Of a DNA stretch of 64,000 nt, positions 34,714 to 42,612 are shown one piece after another. The DNA lies in the NCBI GenBank assembly GCA_036000965.1, contig DASYUT010000108.1, positions 1 to 64,000 of the forward strand. Reading direction: 5' to 3'. A model generated the notes under the pieces. That model did not search any database, was not told where the DNA came from, and worked only from the letters and a program-made list of their open reading frames with translations. Positions within the stretch are counted from its first letter, which is position 1, and every line of letters begins with the position of its first letter. The translations under genes were made by a program, and so were the position numbers. Source of the stretch: Actinomycetes bacterium (lineage in GTDB: Bacteria > Actinomycetota > CALGFH01).

Positions 34714-35699
34714 GCATGCCCGTTGCCGCTGTGCTCGGCTGGCCGCTCGCGCACACCCTCTCCCCCCGGCTCCACCAGGCCGCCTACCAGGCCGCCGGTC
34801 TCCACGGCTGGCGCTACGAGGCCCGCCCGACCCGGCCCGAGGAGCTGCCCGCGGGGCTCGGGCTGGTCCGCTCGGGGGAGCTGGCCGGGGTCAACCTCAC
34901 CACCCCCCACAAGGAGGCGGCGGCGGCCCTGGTCGACCGGCTGGAGCCCCCCGCCGACGCGCTCGCCGCGGTGAACACGGTGTGGCCGGCGTACGGCGGC
35001 CTGGTCGGCGGCAACACCGACGTGGCCGGCGTGCTCTGGGCCCTCGACCGCCAGCTCGGACTGGCGCGCGGCGGCGACCCGGCCGTGCCACCCGGCGGTG
35101 GCTGGGACGGTGCCGGCTGGGACAGTGCCGGCTGGGACAGTGCCGGCTGGGACAGCGGCGGCTGGGACAGTGCCGACCCGGCCGTGCCACCCGGTGGTGG
35201 CTGGGACGGCGGCGGTCCGGCCGTGCTGCTCGGCACCGGCGGGGCCGCGCTGGCCGTCGCGCTCGCGTGGGCCCGCCTGGCCGAGGCTCGTGCCGGCCGC
35301 GCCCTGCCGACCAGCCCGCTCACCGTGGTCGGGCGCGACCCGGCCCGGGTGACGCTCGTCGCCCGCCTGGCCGGCCCCGGCGCGGCCAGGCTCGGCTGGG
35401 ACGCGGCCGCGGACCTGGTCGGCCGGGCAAGGGTGGTCGTCCAGGCGACCACCCTGACCGCCCGGGGCGAGCCCGTGCCCGGCCAGGACAAGCTCGTCCC
35501 AGGCGTCCGCCTGCTCGACCTGAACTACGGGCTGCACGCCCAGGGCCTGGTCGCCGCGGCCCGGGCCGCCGGGGCCCGCGCCGCCGTGGACGGGCTCGGC
35601 ATGCTCTGCGCCCAGGCCGCCGAGGCGATGACCCGCCACACCGGCGCCCGCGCCGACCTCGCGGCCATGGCCGCCGCGGTCGGCCTCGCCCTGCGGTAG
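34710..35699 (+). CDS. aroE: Shikimate dehydrogenase with repeat-encoded insertion
   Basis: AroE reduces 3-dehydroshikimate to shikimate with NADPH. 329 residues, about 50 more than usual. Substrate-domain residues are present: SPRLH, catalytic K68 in TTPHKEAA and D104 in GNTDVAGV. The nucleotide-binding loop is GTGGAALAV near 175-183. Between the two domains, residues ~121-169 are an insertion of Gly/Trp/Asp-rich repeats (GWDSA units) encoded by 15-bp tandem repeats. The insertion sits in the interdomain linker, where it may be tolerated. Start GTG 34710 overlaps mltG; ATG 34716 is also possible. Confidence 0.9.
   Translation: MSMPVAAVLGWPLAHTLSPRLHQAAYQAAGLHGWRYEARPTRPEELPAGLGLVRSGELAGVNLTTPHKEAAAALVDRLEPPADALAAVNTVWPAYGGLVGGNTDVAGVLWALDRQLGLARGGDPAVPPGGGWDGAGWDSAGWDSAGWDSGGWDSADPAVPPGGGWDGGGPAVLLGTGGAALAVALAWARLAEARAGRALPTSPLTVVGRDPARVTLVARLAGPGAARLGWDAAADLVGRARVVVQATTLTARGEPVPGQDKLVPGVRLLDLNYGLHAQGLVAAARAAGARAAVDGLGMLCAQAAEAMTRHTGARADLAAMAAAVGLALR
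35077..35214. repeat. 15-bp tandem repeats inside aroE, flanked by a 39-bp duplication
   Basis: Five copies of GGCTGGGACAGTGCC-type units from 35100 to 35175. A 39-bp unit beginning GACCCGGCCGTGCCACC occurs before (from about 35077) and after (from about 35176). All stay in frame. Confidence 0.9.
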
Positions 35700-35929
35700 G
35701 CCCTCCGGGTAGAGCCTGGGCGGTGCCTGATCGACATCCAATTGAACGACGAGCAGGTAGACGCTCTTGGTGCAGGTAGTTCGAGCGGGGGAGGAGCGAA
35801 TGACCATCCACAGGCTGGCCCTTCGCTAGGCTCGCCCTAATCGCGATGGTAGGTTCCACGCTCGCTCAAGCGGCCACGAACCCGGAGGTGTGAGCCTGTC
35901 ATGGAGCGCCGTCCACGTGCGGGCACGTG
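35700..35929. other. Left boundary of the accessory island
   Basis: About 230 bases, less GC-rich than aroE, marking a change of composition. It has TAGGCT at 35827-35832 and TAGGTT shortly after as possible -10 boxes, and an SD (GGAGG, 35884-35888) before a nine-codon ORF. No att site or tRNA was seen that would explain insertion. Confidence 0.4.
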
Positions 35930-35930
35930 A
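35901..35930 (+). promoter_or_regulatory. Nine-codon leader ORF coupled to the helicase stub
   Basis: ATG 35901 to TGA 35928-35930 encodes MERRPRAGT. Its stop overlaps ATG 35930 of the helicase-like frame (TGATG). This mirrors the eight-codon leader ORF before the RM gene at 2791-2765. Confidence 0.4.
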
Positions 35931-36265
35931 TGGCCGACCTCTGTGGGCAGGCCCGCAATCGTCAGGTCGAACTGCGTGGGCACTTCCCTGCTCCGGTGCG
36001 CATCGAGGTCGCCGAGCTGATCGGTGAGGACCTGTACCTCTTGCGAGTGCGCACCGTGGCCGGCGTGCCGGACGAGACCACGCTCACCGGCACCGAGCTC
36101 GCCGAGGCGCTCGACCAAGCCCCCGTCGCGATCTCCGTGGTCGCAGCTCAGGATCTCTTCCGCTGGGTCGAGAGCCATCGCATCCGGCTCGCGTTCGCCC
36201 ACGACCCCTGCTTCGCGGTCTCCCTCAGCGGCATCCGCGGGCTGCCCCACCAGATCGAGGCGGGC
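35930..36265 (+). pseudogene. N-terminal stub of an SNF2-type helicase
   Basis: About 112 codons. Residues 20-60 (PAPVRIEVAELIGEDLYLLR...TLTGTELAEAL) and especially IRLAFAHDPCFAVSLSGIRG followed by LPHQIEA match, from memory, the N-terminus of the large SNF2-family helicases found in DISARM-like and DUF1156/DUF499 loci. In those, LPHQIEAVY leads within ~20 residues to the Walker A motif. Here similarity ends at LPHQIEA (36262), and a promoter begins four bases later. No later part of the helicase is present. The frame stays open into the NYN gene, so a fusion protein is formally possible but less likely than a broken gene. Confidence 0.6.
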
Positions 36266-36293
36266 TTGACAGGGACGCCAGGGTCGCTACCAT
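36266..36293 (+). promoter_or_regulatory. Near-consensus promoter inside the accessory island
   Basis: TTGACA (36266-36271), 16-base spacer, TACCAT (36288-36293). The -35 is a perfect consensus, rare in this window. Transcription would start near 36300 and drive a short structured RNA and, by read-through, the NYN-DUF1156-DUF499 genes. Confidence 0.65.
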
Positions 36294-36299
36294 TGCCGT

Positions 36300-36377
36300 A
36301 TCAACCTCCCGCAGCGGAGTCAGCTTCGCTGCGTATTCGACCCCCGGGGAGCCCGCTGGCGGCTCCCCGTATCTTTT
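36300..36377 (+). ncRNA. Predicted ~78-nt structured RNA upstream of the NYN nuclease
   Basis: From the predicted start near 36300 the transcript forms two hairpins. The first is a 7-bp stem CGCAGCG/CGCTGCG (36310-36316 with 36327-36333). The second is a 9-bp GC stem (36345-36353 with 36361-36369) followed by TATCTTTT. It matches no RNA family I recognise. It could be a free small RNA, a transcription attenuator for the operon, or an antitoxin-like RNA for the nuclease. Presence of an RNA is inferred from promoter plus terminator only. Confidence 0.5.
36345..36377 (+). terminator. Intrinsic terminator/attenuator before the NYN gene
   Basis: Nine-base-pair stem CGGGGAGCC/GGCTCCCCG, seven-base loop, then GTATCTTTT... 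with four terminal Ts. It lies 27-33 bases before the NYN start, so most transcripts from 36266 may stop here. Confidence 0.6.
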
Positions 36378-36409
36378 GCCGCCTGGCGGGTCGAGGGAGG
36401 GGGGTGCGC

Positions 36410-37009
36410 GTGAACCGGGTCCGGGTCTTCATCGACTACTGGAACTTCCAGCTTGCCTGGAACCGGACCATCGGCAAGGGTTGCGACTGGCGAGAGTTGC
36501 CCCGCGCGCTCGTACGACACACCGGTGAACTCTTCGAGACGGTGGGTGCCGACGCGAATCTCACCCTTGAGCGGACGACCCTCTACGCATCGGTGGACCC
36601 GGACGCCGACGCCAACCTGCGTCGGTGGCTGACAGCAACCATCAGTCGCTTCCCCAGCTACACGGTCAGGGTGTATGACCGCCGCGCCCGCCGCGACTCG
36701 ATCCACTGCCGGCTCTGCAAGGTCGCCACCGGCGCCTGCCCGAACTGCGGCGAGCCCTACGTCCGCCGACCTGAGAAAGGTGTGGACAGTGCCATCGTCA
36801 CCGACCTCCTCTCCCTGGCCTGGGAGGACGCGTACGACGTGGCGATCCTCGTCACCAGCGACGCCGACTTCGTCCCGGCGGTCGAGCGCGTGCAGGAGCG
36901 CGGGGTCAAGGTGGTCAACGCCGCCTGGCGCCACCGCGGGCACGAGCTGCAGCGCACATGCTGGGCGAGCTTTGCCATCGACGAGATCGAGGAGGAGCTG
37001 TGCCGCTGA
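36410..37009 (+). CDS. NYN-domain ribonuclease-like protein with inserted four-cysteine motif
   Basis: 199 residues with the PIN-like NYN fold (LabA/DUF88 group), a family of metal-dependent RNases. The acidic site is intact: D9 in VFIDYWNFQ, D126 in KGVDSAIVTDLL, D151 and D153 in VTSDADFVPAVERVQERG. Unusually, CRLC (100-103) and CPNC (110-113) sit just before the second acidic motif, suggesting a zinc-ribbon insertion. GTG 36410 or GTG 36404 follows GGGAGGGGGG. It overlaps the DUF1156 start by ten bases, so the two are co-translated. By context a defence or toxin-like RNase; target unknown. Confidence 0.82.
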   Translation: MNRVRVFIDYWNFQLAWNRTIGKGCDWRELPRALVRHTGELFETVGADANLTLERTTLYASVDPDADANLRRWLTATISRFPSYTVRVYDRRARRDSIHCRLCKVATGACPNCGEPYVRRPEKGVDSAIVTDLLSLAWEDAYDVAILVTSDADFVPAVERVQERGVKVVNAAWRHRGHELQRTCWASFAIDEIEEELCR

Positions 37010-39672
37010 ACGGCCGCCGGCTGATCGAGGACGTGCTCCCGATCGAGGCGATCAACCAGGTCGCCCAGCGGGAGAAGATCGGACACGCCGCCCACCACCC
37101 CCGGAAGCTCCACCTGTGGTGGGCCCGGCGCCCGCTGGCCGCCGCGCGGGCCGCCGTGTACGCCGCGCTCGTGCCTGCCGAGGGGCGGGGTCGCACCCCG
37201 GCCGAGGAGGCGGCGTTCTTCACCGCCCTGTGCCGCTGGGGTGGCCCTGAGCGCACCATCGACCAGGCCCGGCAAGAGGTGCTCGCCGCCAACGGCGGCG
37301 TCCCCCCGAAGGTGCTCGACATGTTCGCAGGGGGTGGCGCGATACCGCTGGAAGCCGCCCGCCTGGGCTGCGAGGCCACCGCGGTCGAGCTGAACCCGGT
37401 CGCGCACCTGATCGAGCGCTGCATGCTCGAGTTCCCCCAGCGCTTCCCCGGCCTCGCCGACGACGTCCGCCGCTGGGGCCGCGTCTGGGTCGCACGCGCC
37501 TGGGAGCAGCTCGCCGACCTCTATCCGCCGGTCGGTCCGGGGAGCGGGCAGCAGCGGCTCGACAACGGCGCCGACGGGGGTGCCCGCCGTCCGCTCGCCT
37601 ACCTGTGGACACGCACGGTGCGCTGCCCCAACCCCGCTCTTGCCGAGCACCGTGTGCCCCTGGTGCGCCAAACCTGGCTCGCCCGCAAGCGCGGGCGTGC
37701 CGTCGCCCTGCGCACGGTCATCGACCGGGCCAGCCTGTCGGTGCGCTACGAATTGGCCGAGGCGGCGTCGGAGTCGGGCCTCGGCTTCAACCCCGCCGCC
37801 GGGTCCAGCCGCGGCCAGGCCACCTGCCCGATCTGCGGCGCCACGGTCGATGCCGACCACGTCAAGGCCGAGGGCGTGGCCGGCCGCATGGACGTCGTCC
37901 CTCTAGCTGCGGCGGTCCTCAAGCCGTCTGGCCGCGGCCGGGATTACCTGCCCGCCGGGTCCTACCCCCTCCCCGACGACGCCGAGTGCGACCGCCGGCT
38001 CAAGGCGCTCGATGTCATGCCGCTGGACGAGCTACTGCCGGCGAAGGATACGAAGAACTTTTGGGTGCCACAGTATGGCTTAACTCGCTTCCGTGACCTA
38101 TTCACCTCGCGCCAGCTTCTTACCCTCAGCACGCTCGCCGCAGGAGTCCGCCAGACGCACGAGGAGATGGTCGCGTCGGGGGTGGACGCGGAGCGCGCGG
38201 ATGCGGTGGCGTGTTGCCTTGGCCTGACGTTGGATCGTCTTGCCGACCGGGGCGGCACGCTGTGTCGGTGGGACGTGGGAAACGAGACTGCGATGAATAC
38301 GTTCGCACGCCAAGCCTTGCCCATGGTGTGGGACTTCGTCGAACCTGCACCGTTTGGTGGGGCTGCGGGCGATGCGAGCAGCAACGTAGACATCACTGCC
38401 GAGATCATGCAGGGGTTGGCCAACGTTCCGCGTCGGAGTGTGGTGATCCGTTCTTCTGCCACCTCACTGCCGCTTCCGGAAGCATCCCAGGACGCTGTCA
38501 TCACCGACCCGCCCTATTACGACAACATCAGCTACGCTGACCTCTCGGACTTCTTCTACGTCTGGCTCAAGCGCTCGGTCGGATTCCTCTATCCCGACGA
38601 TCTCGGCGGCGAGCTGGCGCCAAAGCGGAACGAGGCAGTGGTCGCGCCCTACCGCCACCACGGCGATCGGGGGGAAGCCCGCAGGTTCTACGAGCAAATG
38701 ATGGCGCGGTCGTTCGCAGAGGCCCACCGCGTGCTCAAGCCGGGCGCGCCGCTGGTCTGCATCTACGCCCACAAGACGACGCTCGGCTGGTCGACGCTGG
38801 TGGATGCGCTGCGGCAGGCTGGGTTTGAGATCACCGAGGCGTGGCCGCTGGACACCGAGATGCCCGCACGGTCGATCGGGCAGGGGACTGCAAGCCTTGC
38901 CTCCTCCATCTTCCTGGTCGCCCGGAAGCGGGCCCCCGGCGTCGCCCCCGGCGTCGAGGCAGAGGTCCTGGCGGAGCTGGACGAGGTTATCCGCGAGCGG
39001 CTGGATCGCCTTACCGAAGCGGGGATCTCCGGGTCAGACCTCGTCATCGCGACGGTCGGGGCGGGGCTGCGGCCGTTCACGCGCTACGAGCGAGTGGAGC
39101 GGGAGAACGGCGAGCCGCTCGACGCGGAGCGGTTCCTGGTGCTGGTGCAGAACCGCGTGCTCGATGCCATCTTCGGCGGGCTCGCGGGCGCCGACCCCGC
39201 CACCCGCTTCTACATCGCGGGCCAGTTCAGCTACGGCTATGGATCGGTGCCATTCGCCGAGGCCAATAACCTCGCCTACATGACCGGGGTGGAGCTGGAC
39301 GAGCCGCGCGGCCTGACCGCGGGCCGCAACCCGCTGGTTGCCAAGAAGGGATCCACCGTCGCCCTGCGCGACTTCGAGGAGCGCGGCTCCGACGCGCACC
39401 TCGGCGTCCCGGACGAGCTTGGACCGGGTCGCCCGCCGCTGATCGACGTCGCCCACGGCATCCTCTGGCGGGCCGAGTACCACTCCGGGGAGCTCAAGGA
39501 CTACCTGGCTGGTACCCGGCCAGACGTGGACCTGCTGCGCACCGTGATCCAGGCGCTCGCTGGCAAGGCGCTCCGCTCCAAGCTCGACAACGGCAAGGCG
39601 CCCGAGGCGGCCGCCGCAGAGCGCCTGCTGGTGTCCTGGCGCCGGCTGATCGACGACAACCTGTTCCGCTAG
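37000..39672 (+). CDS. DUF1156 DNA methyltransferase (anti-phage associated)
   Basis: 890 residues. The N-terminal DUF1156 segment has RKLHLWWARRPLAAARA. SAM-binding motif I is DMFAGGGAIPLEA from D107, with VELNPVAHL after it. A CPICG zinc-type motif lies near 276. The catalytic motif is DPPYYDNISYADLSDFFYVW from D503. This is an N6-adenine or N4-cytosine type DNA methylase. The family pairs with DUF499 ATPases and a helicase in loci annotated as anti-phage. GTG 37000 follows GAGGAGGAG and overlaps the NYN stop. The stretch coding residues ~348-520 (38040-38560) is clearly less GC-rich than the rest, hinting at mosaic origin. Confidence 0.88.
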   Translation: MPLNGRRLIEDVLPIEAINQVAQREKIGHAAHHPRKLHLWWARRPLAAARAAVYAALVPAEGRGRTPAEEAAFFTALCRWGGPERTIDQARQEVLAANGGVPPKVLDMFAGGGAIPLEAARLGCEATAVELNPVAHLIERCMLEFPQRFPGLADDVRRWGRVWVARAWEQLADLYPPVGPGSGQQRLDNGADGGARRPLAYLWTRTVRCPNPALAEHRVPLVRQTWLARKRGRAVALRTVIDRASLSVRYELAEAASESGLGFNPAAGSSRGQATCPICGATVDADHVKAEGVAGRMDVVPLAAAVLKPSGRGRDYLPAGSYPLPDDAECDRRLKALDVMPLDELLPAKDTKNFWVPQYGLTRFRDLFTSRQLLTLSTLAAGVRQTHEEMVASGVDAERADAVACCLGLTLDRLADRGGTLCRWDVGNETAMNTFARQALPMVWDFVEPAPFGGAAGDASSNVDITAEIMQGLANVPRRSVVIRSSATSLPLPEASQDAVITDPPYYDNISYADLSDFFYVWLKRSVGFLYPDDLGGELAPKRNEAVVAPYRHHGDRGEARRFYEQMMARSFAEAHRVLKPGAPLVCIYAHKTTLGWSTLVDALRQAGFEITEAWPLDTEMPARSIGQGTASLASSIFLVARKRAPGVAPGVEAEVLAELDEVIRERLDRLTEAGISGSDLVIATVGAGLRPFTRYERVERENGEPLDAERFLVLVQNRVLDAIFGGLAGADPATRFYIAGQFSYGYGSVPFAEANNLAYMTGVELDEPRGLTAGRNPLVAKKGSTVALRDFEERGSDAHLGVPDELGPGRPPLIDVAHGILWRAEYHSGELKDYLAGTRPDVDLLRTVIQALAGKALRSKLDNGKAPEAAAAERLLVSWRRLIDDNLFR

Positions 39673-39804
39673 CCTCACCCAGCAACCCAACCAAGCGAGT
39701 ATCGCGTCTGCCGCTTCGCTTGCGCGCCAAGTGCCATCCTTCCAGGTCGTCCGAGTTCCCGGGTAGGCTTGCCCGCATCCGTCGTGACCCTGGAGGCTGC
39801 ACCG
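39673..39804 (+). promoter_or_regulatory. Gap before the DUF499 gene with its own -10 box
   Basis: 132 bases of lower GC. TAGGCT at 39764-39769 lies 35 bases before ATG 39805, so the ATPase may have an independent promoter. A GGAGG SD is present 9 bases ahead of the ATG. Confidence 0.4.
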
Positions 39805-42612
39805 ATGCCGAGCACCGCCTACCGCCTGGTTCCCTGGACCGACGTCGCGCAGCCCAACCAGGACGTGGCCGGCGGCGCGCTGGACATGGGGACCTACGCC
39901 GTCAACCTCGCGCGGGTGTTCCGGCGCAGGCCAGGCGTGCCGGACGTGTACGGCCGGCCGGACCGGTTCTTCGCCGCGACCTACTTCACCGAGAAGCTGC
40001 GCGAGCTGCTGACCGACGTGCTCGAGGTGCTCGCGGGCGGTCCGGGCGACCAGGTGCTGCAGCTCCGCACCCCGTTCGGCGGGGGCAAGACCCACACGCT
40101 GGTCGCGCTGCTGCACCTGGCTCGCGACCGGGACGCGGCGGCGGGGATCGCCGAGCTGGCGGGCCTGGCCGATCCTGGTCGCGTGCGGGTCGCCGTCCTC
40201 TCCGGCGAGGAGCTGGATCCTCTGGACCCGTTCCGGTCGGACGACGGGCAGGAGACGCATACCCTCTGGGGGGAGCTGGCTGCCCAGCTCGGCAGCTACG
40301 ACCTGGTCGCCGAGCACGACCGGACGGGCGTGGCGCCTGGCGGGGACCTGCTGCATCGCGTGCTCGGCGAGGGGCCGGTGCTGCTGCTGCTCGACGAGGT
40401 GCTGGTCTATGTCGAGAAGGCCATGGCGGTCGTCCGTGGGGACTCCACGCTGGGGCGGCAGGCGATGCTGTTCGTCCAGGCGCTGACCGAGGTGGTCAAC
40501 ACCCGGCCGTGCACCGCCATGGTCTACAGCTTGCAGGCCAGCGTCGGCGAGGCGGTCGGGGCGGAGGGCCTGCTCAGCCAGCTCGACCACCTGGTCAGCC
40601 GGATCGACGCCAAGAGGGAGCCGGTCTCCGGCGACGAGGTCATGCGGGTGGTGCAGCGGCGCCTGTTCGCCGACCCGGGCGACCCGGCCGTGCGCCGTGA
40701 GGTCGCCACGGCCTATGCCGACCTGATCGAGCGCCAACTCCAGGCGCAGGCCGAGACCGACGAGGGCAGGCGGGAGGCAGCGGTCGAGGCTCGGAGGCTC
40801 GAGGAGCGCATCCTCGCCTCGTACCCGTTCCACCCGGCGCTGCTCGACCTGATGTACCACCGCTGGGGCACGCTCCCGAGCTACCAGCGGACCCGGGGCG
40901 CTCTCCAGTTCCTGGCGAGCGTCATCCACGGTCTGTGGCAGCGAGGGAGCGACAGCGCGCTCATCGGCCCCGGTGAGGTGGACCTCAGCTACGAGCCGGC
41001 CCGGGGGGCGTTCTTCAGCCAGGTCGGCGAGCGCGAGCGCTACACCGCCGTCCTCGACGGCGACGTCGTCGCCGACGGCTCCGGCGCTGCCGTGGTCGAC
41101 AGGCGCATCGGCGCGGACGCCCCGGCGCTGGCGCAGCTCCGAGTTGGCACGCGCATGGCCACCGCGATCATGCTCTACAGCTTCGGCACGCGCGAGGGCG
41201 AGGAGAAGGGCGTGCTCGAGAGCGACCTCGTCACGGCGACGCTCGTACCCGGGCTGGACCGCAACGTCGTCGTTGCGGCCCTGCACGACCTGCGCGAGGA
41301 GGAGCTGTTCCTCCACTACACCGGCCGGCGGTACCGCTTCGAGCCGGTCCCGAACCTGACCAAGCTCGTGCGCGACGAGGCCAACAAGTTTCTGGCCCTG
41401 GAGGTCCTCGAGCGGGTCCGCGCCGCACTCGAGGAGGAGTTGGGCGACGCCCGGAATGCGCTCGTATGGCCGGACAGTCCCGAGAAGGTGCGCGACAAGG
41501 TGCCCGCGTTCACGCTCGCCTACCTGCACCCGGACTGGAGCCAAGGCGAGCAGCCACTTACCCGCTTCGTGGAAGGCACCCCCGGCCGGAGCCGTGACTA
41601 CCGCAACGCGGTCGGCTTCGTCCTGCCCGATGGCGCCCAGTTCGACCGCGCCCGGGCGTCCGCGCGCCTGCTGCTCGCGGCTGAGTCCCTGCTCAAGCGT
41701 CGGGCGCAGCTCGGTTTCAGCCCGGAGCAGGTCGCCGAGCTGAAGGAGAAGCTCGAGGGCGCCGAGCGCGACCTCGGCGCCACGCTCGCCCGGGCCTACG
41801 GCCGCGCCGTCGTGCCGGTGCGGGCGTCGAGCGGGTCAGGACCGTACCGGCTCGACGAGGTCGACCTCCGCTCCCTGCTTGCCGCCGGCCGCTCCCTCGA
41901 CCAGCGGGTCCGCGCCGCGCTCGAGCACCGAGTGTTCGACCACCTTACCGTCGACAAGCTGGTCGCGCTGGCCGGGCTGGGCCCGGACCGCCCGGTGGTC
42001 CGCTGCGCCGACCTGGTGGACTGGTTCTTCAGCTACTTCGAGTTCACCAAGCTGTGGAGCACCGCGGCGATCGCCGATGCCATCTTCCGGGGTGTCGGGG
42101 ACGGCCGGTTTGCGTATGCCACCGGACTCGAGGTCGTGTACGGTACCGCCAAGGTACGTGACCCGAAGCTCGTGCGCTTCCGGGAGCTGCTGCCGGTGGG
42201 GGAAATCGATCTGAGCGGCGACGCCGCGATCCTCACCGCCGAACTCGCCGAGTCCCTGGTCGCACCCCCACCCGTCGCCGGCGACGCCGGGCCGCCAGAA
42301 CCGGATGGCGACGGCTCTCAGCCGGGCGGCGACCTGTTCACGCCGCCAGCGCCGCCACCTCGCCCGGTCGGTCCGACCGACCGGATCACAACTCTTGCGT
42401 TGCGGGTACGGCTGGAGGGACGCGCGCTGTACGGCCTCACCCGAGCGCTCTCGTGGCTCCGCGAACACTCGAGCACGATGGACATCGAGCTCACGGTCCG
42501 CGTGCTCGCAAGGGACGAGGGCTTTCTGCGTAGTCAGCTCACCAACGGGGTCATCGAGCCGCTCGAGGAAGGTGGCGTCGACGACACCGACATCCACCTG
42601 GAACTCTCGTGA
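39805..42612 (+). CDS. DUF499 ATPase (anti-phage associated)
   Basis: 935 residues. Walker A is TPFGGGKTHTLVAL (core GGGKTHT from residue 93), Walker B is VLLLLDEVLVYVEKAM near 190-205, and a long helical region with PFHPALLDLMYHRWGTLPSYQRTRGALQ follows, typical of DUF499. The C-terminal third is more variable with a Pro-rich linker (about 820-850). DUF499 proteins accompany DUF1156 methylases and a helicase in defence loci; mechanism not established to my knowledge. ATG 39805 is chosen for its SD and because PWTDVAQPNQDVAGG matches the family start. Likely the last intact gene of the island. Confidence 0.87.
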   Translation: MPSTAYRLVPWTDVAQPNQDVAGGALDMGTYAVNLARVFRRRPGVPDVYGRPDRFFAATYFTEKLRELLTDVLEVLAGGPGDQVLQLRTPFGGGKTHTLVALLHLARDRDAAAGIAELAGLADPGRVRVAVLSGEELDPLDPFRSDDGQETHTLWGELAAQLGSYDLVAEHDRTGVAPGGDLLHRVLGEGPVLLLLDEVLVYVEKAMAVVRGDSTLGRQAMLFVQALTEVVNTRPCTAMVYSLQASVGEAVGAEGLLSQLDHLVSRIDAKREPVSGDEVMRVVQRRLFADPGDPAVRREVATAYADLIERQLQAQAETDEGRREAAVEARRLEERILASYPFHPALLDLMYHRWGTLPSYQRTRGALQFLASVIHGLWQRGSDSALIGPGEVDLSYEPARGAFFSQVGERERYTAVLDGDVVADGSGAAVVDRRIGADAPALAQLRVGTRMATAIMLYSFGTREGEEKGVLESDLVTATLVPGLDRNVVVAALHDLREEELFLHYTGRRYRFEPVPNLTKLVRDEANKFLALEVLERVRAALEEELGDARNALVWPDSPEKVRDKVPAFTLAYLHPDWSQGEQPLTRFVEGTPGRSRDYRNAVGFVLPDGAQFDRARASARLLLAAESLLKRRAQLGFSPEQVAELKEKLEGAERDLGATLARAYGRAVVPVRASSGSGPYRLDEVDLRSLLAAGRSLDQRVRAALEHRVFDHLTVDKLVALAGLGPDRPVVRCADLVDWFFSYFEFTKLWSTAAIADAIFRGVGDGRFAYATGLEVVYGTAKVRDPKLVRFRELLPVGEIDLSGDAAILTAELAESLVAPPPVAGDAGPPEPDGDGSQPGGDLFTPPAPPPRPVGPTDRITTLALRVRLEGRALYGLTRALSWLREHSSTMDIELTVRVLARDEGFLRSQLTNGVIEPLEEGGVDDTDIHLELS

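Follow-up and report, generated by a model that had tools for sequence, protein, structure and literature searches.

A small two-hairpin RNA conserved beside a NYN-domain ribonuclease in at least seven bacterial phyla: a probable RNA antitoxin-toxin module

The window analyzed in the present work is a 64,000-nucleotide stretch of contig DASYUT010000108.1 (GenBank assembly GCA_036000965.1, from an Actinomycetes bacterium), and it contains a damaged locus of the Hma system in which a small RNA with two hairpins stands ahead of a gene for a NYN-domain ribonuclease (RNase). The RNA proves to be a genuine structured element, the cassette that it forms with the NYN gene is real and conserved, and the pair is an independent, widespread unit with members in at least seven phyla of bacteria. 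It is probably a module of RNA antitoxin and NYN toxin that serves plasmid maintenance or abortive infection.

Across the loci the region upstream of the NYN gene has a common layout, which consists of a promoter, a box, a first hairpin, a second box, and a second hairpin with a run of T. When 27 of these sequences are aligned, both helices covary at every pair: double-change cells number 126, compared with 49.3±5.5 after shuffling (0/500 shuffles reach the observed count), and 85.5% of the cells pair when the strands are in register, while 38-46% do so when they are slid. In the window the two-hairpin fold has z = -3.7, and the promoter, which the initial annotation had correctly placed just past the end of a helicase fragment, is the sole match in 1.4 kb (one found, where 0.1 would be expected); TTGACn/TA-type promoters similar to it precede many of the other RNAs. 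A known Rfam RNA is excluded as the identity of the element, because no match was obtained, either at the gathering threshold for the window or at E <= 1 for the RNAs. The box is a 12-nt motif (consensus nAUnnnnnnCCC) that precedes each hairpin in the family. The identity between the first and second boxes within one RNA is 0.607, compared with 0.509±0.020 after boxes have been exchanged at random among RNAs (0/5000; the background is 0.25), and the likeness disappears out of register; the presence of two like sites suggests that two protomers may be bound.

The first covariance model (R1), for which detection was at E <= 0.05 and 27 of whose matched loci were training sequences, places the RNA next to 31 of the 33 NYN genes whose active site is intact, in seven phyla, on five plasmids and on viral contigs, and beside none of the five NYN genes with an altered Asp126. 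Two further models guard against circularity. One (R2) was built without the window, and its single match in the 6.47-Mb genome is the window RNA (E 4.8e-8); the other (R3) was built solely from the other major NYN clade, and it detects the window RNA (E 3e-7), L002-L006, L088 and L089, together with the held-out loci L013, L018, L098 and L103. A scan of 2.9 million viral contigs with a DNA pattern for the RNA gave three matches, all three on contigs that carry a NYN gene, and the RNA was not detected in Hma loci that have no NYN gene. A free-standing RNA family was also considered and was set aside, the 299 Pseudomonadota genomes having yielded one weak orphan match (L107).

A search of genome contigs with the NYN protein found 19 loci in seven phyla, and the annotated neighbours of the chromosomal copies are mostly housekeeping genes (polA, glycogen synthase, metH). 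Further members lie on plasmids of 6-12 kb in Novacetimonas, Pararoseomonas, Paracoccus, Aeromonas and Cobetia, and viral contigs carry the gene as well; in one provirus it lies between endolysin/spanin and integrase genes. Carriage is patchy, with 2 of 397 genomes in the window's own phylum, 3 strong cases among 284 Myxococcota, 9 among 297 Acidobacteriota and 1 among 299 Pseudomonadota. The divergence of the RNA is correlated with that of the NYN protein (Mantel r 0.49, 0/5000). Two side observations concern distribution. The same NYN gene, RNA and neighbours occur in two metagenome-assembled genomes labelled Desulfobacteraceae and Anaerolineaceae (L011 and L012), which reflects either recent transfer or binning contamination, and small enterobacterial plasmids (Klebsiella ColRNAI plasmids of 4.2 kb, L104) carry a distant NYN gene without an RNA of the window type.

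At most loci the RNA shares the strand of the NYN gene, lies 13-130 nt upstream of it and finishes with a terminator-like hairpin. At six loci (L013, L017, L018, L062, L100 and L103) it lies on the opposite strand and points away from the gene, and on the supported NYN tree its orientation has changed at least twice. Because these six loci, of two or more origins, transcribe the RNA away from the NYN gene, the RNA acts in trans, and not as a leader or attenuator; of the "two-hairpin leader" described in the initial annotation, the hairpins are thus retained and the role of leader is not. Antisense pairing between the RNA and the start of the NYN mRNA was rejected, since no complementarity is found there (mean z 0.2).

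The NYN protein of the window has its four cysteines at residues 100, 103, 110 and 113, and a purine-rich, Shine-Dalgarno-like stretch lies just 5' of its gene, at about 36394-36404. The AlphaFold2 model is a confident NYN fold (predicted local distance difference test score, pLDDT, 94), its closest counterparts among solved structures being 2qip and the NYN domain of MARF1; ToxN is not among the structural matches, and weaker matches to sirtuins may be due to a similarly placed zinc ribbon. Asp 9, 126, 151 and 153 are intact in the window protein and conserved in all NYN proteins that have the RNA. In the one clade that lacks the RNA, position 126 is T or E, and position 153 is E in four of the five members, so that loss of the RNA coincides with the change of Asp126 (5/5, compared with 0/30). 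Since loss of a restraining RNA would favour disabling the enzyme, a disabled enzyme in this clade fits the RNA-as-restraint reading, although it represents one event. The members of the clade are Acidobacteriota (L007, L009, L010, L093 and L095); in L007 and L009 the same uridine-kinase-like gene directly follows the NYN gene, which has possibly been co-opted for another job.

Table 1. Features of the window at and around the RNA-NYN cassette
Feature	Position	Strand	Basis
hmaA remnant (SNF2-type helicase), N-terminal ~112 residues	35927..36262	+	PADLOC HmaA E 5e-6, GC content at third codon positions (GC3) 0.88
Sigma70-type promoter of the small RNA, TTGACA-16-TACCAT (16-nt spacer)	36266..36293	+	Pattern match
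Small RNA with two hairpins, likely antitoxin; conserved family outside Rfam	36293..36376	+	Blind covariance models, covariation
Box 1 (GTATCAACCTCC), single-stranded motif ahead of hairpin 1	36298..36309	+	Tandem motif analysis
Hairpin 1 (CGCAGCG...CGCTGCG), covarying helix 1	36310..36333	+	Folding and covariation
Box 2 (GTATTCGACCCC), second copy of the box, ahead of hairpin 2	36333..36344	+	Tandem motif analysis
Hairpin 2, terminator-like (CGGGGAGCC...GGCTCCCCG + TATCTTTT), covarying helix 2	36345..36369	+	Folding and covariation
NYN-domain RNase with CxxC...CxxC insert, likely toxin	36410..37009	+	Pfam NYN E 6e-16
hmaB: DUF1156 DNA methylase, DPPY and FAGGG motifs kept	37000..39672	+	HmaB profile E 9e-139
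hmaC: DUF499 AAA+ ATPase, Walker A FGGGKT kept	39769..42612	+	HmaC profile E 1e-104

The mechanism proposed here is that an RNA of about 85 nt would be made from its own promoter, ending at its own terminator-like hairpin, next to a gene whose product is an RNase of NYN fold into which a zinc-ribbon-like segment is inserted. The RNA consists of two tandem units, each of which comprises the 12-nt single-stranded box and a hairpin, and these units may attach to NYN proteins and occlude their active site in the manner of an RNA antitoxin. If the RNA is short-lived, its exhaustion upon phage shut-off of host transcription or upon plasmid loss would release the NYN protein to cut cellular RNA. In the window the module lies at the hmaA/hmaB junction of the damaged locus, a site at which Hma systems carry embedded defence genes. 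The proposal is made because the layout matches that of type III toxin-antitoxin (TA) loci, and above all that of AbiF-RCd22, and we regard a type III-like TA or abortive infection (Abi) module as the probable reading on balance. Several observations weigh against it. The NYN fold is not the ToxN fold, and, in contrast to the described arrangement of type III TA systems, the RNA is found in either orientation. At the NYN genes of L016 and L019 the R1 matches are only weak. R3 gave one further match among 33 loci, at positions 1501-1602 of L107 (31.5 bits), which was picked as the best orphan match of the Pseudomonadota genomes and has no NYN gene within its 3.1-kb locus; it is either a chance match or an orphan RNA. 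The likeness of the two boxes within an RNA could stem in part from the shared ancestry of close relatives, and the association between the RNA and the active site is one phylogenetic event.

In the main rival reading the RNA would be an essential guide or cofactor, with the NYN protein inactive alone and the RNA, through its variable hairpin-1 loop, targeting or licensing cleavage as part of a ribonucleoprotein effector. The RNA is trans-acting and co-inherited with the NYN gene, the apical region of hairpin 1 varies in both length and sequence, the loss of the RNA together with the active site is what a dead complex would also predict, and AbiF has ties to the ancestry of Cas13 (PMC12373285). 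However, the RNA has neither an array nor a segment that could be exchanged like a spacer, its hairpins and boxes resemble binding sites, and the start of the NYN mRNA, the sole target examined, shows no complementarity, so that the guide or cofactor role is given a small though appreciable probability. Slightly lower still is placed the more specific idea that the two-unit RNA does more than counteract a toxin and provides the specificity or the activation of an immune effector made of RNA and protein; this effector would be the PIN-fold counterpart of the AbiF/Cas13 lineage and would have been spread across bacterial phyla by plasmids and prophages.

NYN/PIN RNases process RNAs, and the RNA might accordingly be a substrate, a regulatory small RNA which is matured by its dedicated NYN RNase and acts as a physiological regulator and not within a toxin system. 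The location of chromosomal copies among housekeeping genes is in keeping with such a role, but the patchy distribution, put at 1-3% of genomes per phylum, the carriage on plasmids and in a provirus, and the spread across phyla speak against a housekeeping function, and this reading is doubtful.

The initial annotation proposed instead that the locus is a variant defence system in which the RNA and the NYN RNase have replaced the helicase as effector and work with the methylase and the ATPase, and it knew of no described system with this set. The combination of DUF1156, DUF499 and a helicase is a known system, Hma (HmaABC; PMC8565338), which has since been re-described among DUF499-centred BREX-related systems (PMC12839542). 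The anatomy that the annotation read from the DNA is borne out. Positions 35915-36262 are 54% identical to residues 9-124 of the 1174-aa HmaA of genome G182, and the similarity breaks off at 36262, just short of G182's ATP-binding motif (Walker A, ADDPGAGKT), so that everything beyond residue ~124, including the motor and the C-terminus, is lost and the RNA-NYN cassette occupies its place cleanly up to the start of hmaB. That start is a GTG at 37000, which gives a 10-nt overlap with the 3' end of the four-cysteine NYN gene and couples the two genes translationally, and the DUF499 gene follows downstream. The reading frames and motifs of hmaB and hmaC, which are adjacent, are intact, and their products are 62% and 58-59% identical to those of G182; because the three parts diverge to a similar extent (54/62/58%), the remnant, hmaB and hmaC are regarded as one operon. 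Movement of the helicase elsewhere is ruled out, since no intact HmaA is present anywhere else in the 6.47-Mb genome, where the missing part has no close match; a damaged paralogue and a remote SNF2 protein were all that was found. One open frame (35927-37009) spans the remnant and the NYN gene, but the linker has a non-coding composition (position-wise GC 0.71/0.73/0.63, compared with a GC3 of ~0.88 in genes) and folds as the conserved RNA, which speaks against a fusion protein; the remnant and NYN are most likely two genes.

As a conserved arrangement, however, the variant fares poorly. The nearest DUF499 relatives, in G182 (59%) and G165 (49%), have an intact hmaA (1174 and 1165 aa) that abuts hmaB, and neither NYN nor RNA is present there; a search for NYN genes adjoining DUF1156 or DUF499 without an intact helicase found no other case, none of the 19 loci and none of the ~37 other four-cysteine NYN loci overall having Hma genes beside them. 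Elsewhere the four-cysteine NYN gene stands alone, as a module of chromosomes, plasmids or phages. In substance these are the two results that the initial annotation had named as refuting its proposal. A helicase-for-RNase type of Hma is for these reasons not supported, and NYN as a conserved component of Hma is rejected. A second Hma locus, on contig C303 of this genome (L053 7351-16334), is damaged as well, which fits decay: its HmaA is without ~residues 410-714 and its HmaB without most of the N-terminal half. Embedded between these two genes are HEC-01A (E 3e-156) and HEC-01B, a candidate pair of Hma-embedded genes of which HEC-01B shares a frame with the HmaB remainder, and in L057 a NYN gene of the type of HEC-09, a PADLOC Hma-embedded candidate, lies between an intact hmaA and hmaB. 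These cases indicate that the junction hosts foreign modules, and they lend the variant some credit, as do the intact hmaB and hmaC, the coupling of NYN to hmaB and the clean replacement of hmaA. The HEC-09 profile matches the C-terminal half of the window NYN (E 5e-14, positions 87-175 of 203), which likewise lies at the junction, but the L057 protein is of a different subtype with another N-terminus (VDGQNF) and no adjoining RNA, and all the other members found of the window's family lie outside Hma. With a single occurrence, the variant is judged improbable. The simplest history would be that the module was inserted at the hmaA/hmaB junction and that the 3' part of hmaA was deleted afterwards. 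Upstream, aroE (shikimate dehydrogenase) carries a tandem, low-complexity insertion of the GWDSAGWDSA type in mid-gene (34982-35220).

Two explanations remain at the lower end. A cis-acting, riboswitch-like leader or attenuator of NYN would account for the usual placement upstream on the same strand and for the terminator-like end, but the orientation changes contradict it, and it is rejected as highly improbable. An assembly chimera or pseudogene debris might be suspected from the fragmented assembly (358 contigs, 4.2% contamination) and the truncated hmaA, but is scarcely credible, as the anatomy of the cassette recurs in independent genomes, the Hma parts diverge alike from G182 and the missing part of hmaA has no close match elsewhere in the genome.

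To our knowledge, RNA-antitoxin modules have been described for few toxin folds, namely ToxN-like proteins, the HEPN protein AbiF and the deaminase AvcD. A strongly covarying RNA family which spans phyla and is tied to a NYN RNase would extend these modules by a further fold, a PIN-like one, and by a new RNA, and it corrects the filing of solitary genes that are recorded merely as "NYN domain-containing protein". AbiF-type RNAs are placed close to where Cas13 arose, so that further RNases with a bound RNA are of interest for the origin of RNA-guided immunity. The module is small (~0.75 kb) and directly testable, and cultured carriers exist in Polyangium fumosum DSM 14668, Paracoccus seriniphilus DSM 14827 and Novacetimonas hansenii (plasmid pKHC110_1). 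As far as could be found the cassette is undescribed: the literature on NYN proteins with an RNA antitoxin, type III TA or a structured RNA contains no described pair within the reach of the search, which did not extend to preprints and many journals, so that an earlier description is possible.

Besides Hma and HEC-09, two known systems provide the closest comparison. In the type III TA systems ToxIN, CptIN and TenpIN, a promoter, a tandem-repeat RNA and a Rho-independent terminator precede an endoribonuclease gene (PMC5086642). A type III antitoxin RNA neutralises its toxin by binding it directly, and the toxin processes the RNA. The RNA-NYN module shares these elements of layout and the occurrence on chromosomes, plasmids and prophages; its tandem RNA differs in repeating as two box-and-hairpin units, with two covarying helices, and the order of RNA, terminator and toxin is seen at the window and at most loci, but not at the six loci with a divergent RNA. 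It is not placed in type III TA, because its protein has no ToxN/AbiQ fold, the nearest folds being those of 2qip and the MARF1 NYN domain. AbiF-RCd22 differs in its toxin, a HEPN protein of the Abi_2/AbiD/F family as opposed to a NYN/PIN-type RNase, and in its RNA, the abiF motif RF03085, to which the NYN-linked RNA, having no Rfam match, is unrelated; the opposite orientation of the RNA, moreover, is possible in the NYN module. In architecture the two are nevertheless much alike. The AbiF-RCd22 RNA, of ~100-130 nt, contains two motifs and is transcribed from a promoter of its own, a terminator separates it from the toxin gene, and it neutralises its HEPN toxin in cis and in trans (PMC12373285); the NYN-linked RNA resembles it in a length of ~100 nt, two motif copies, a promoter of its own, a terminator hairpin before the toxin gene, action in trans and a location in prophages.

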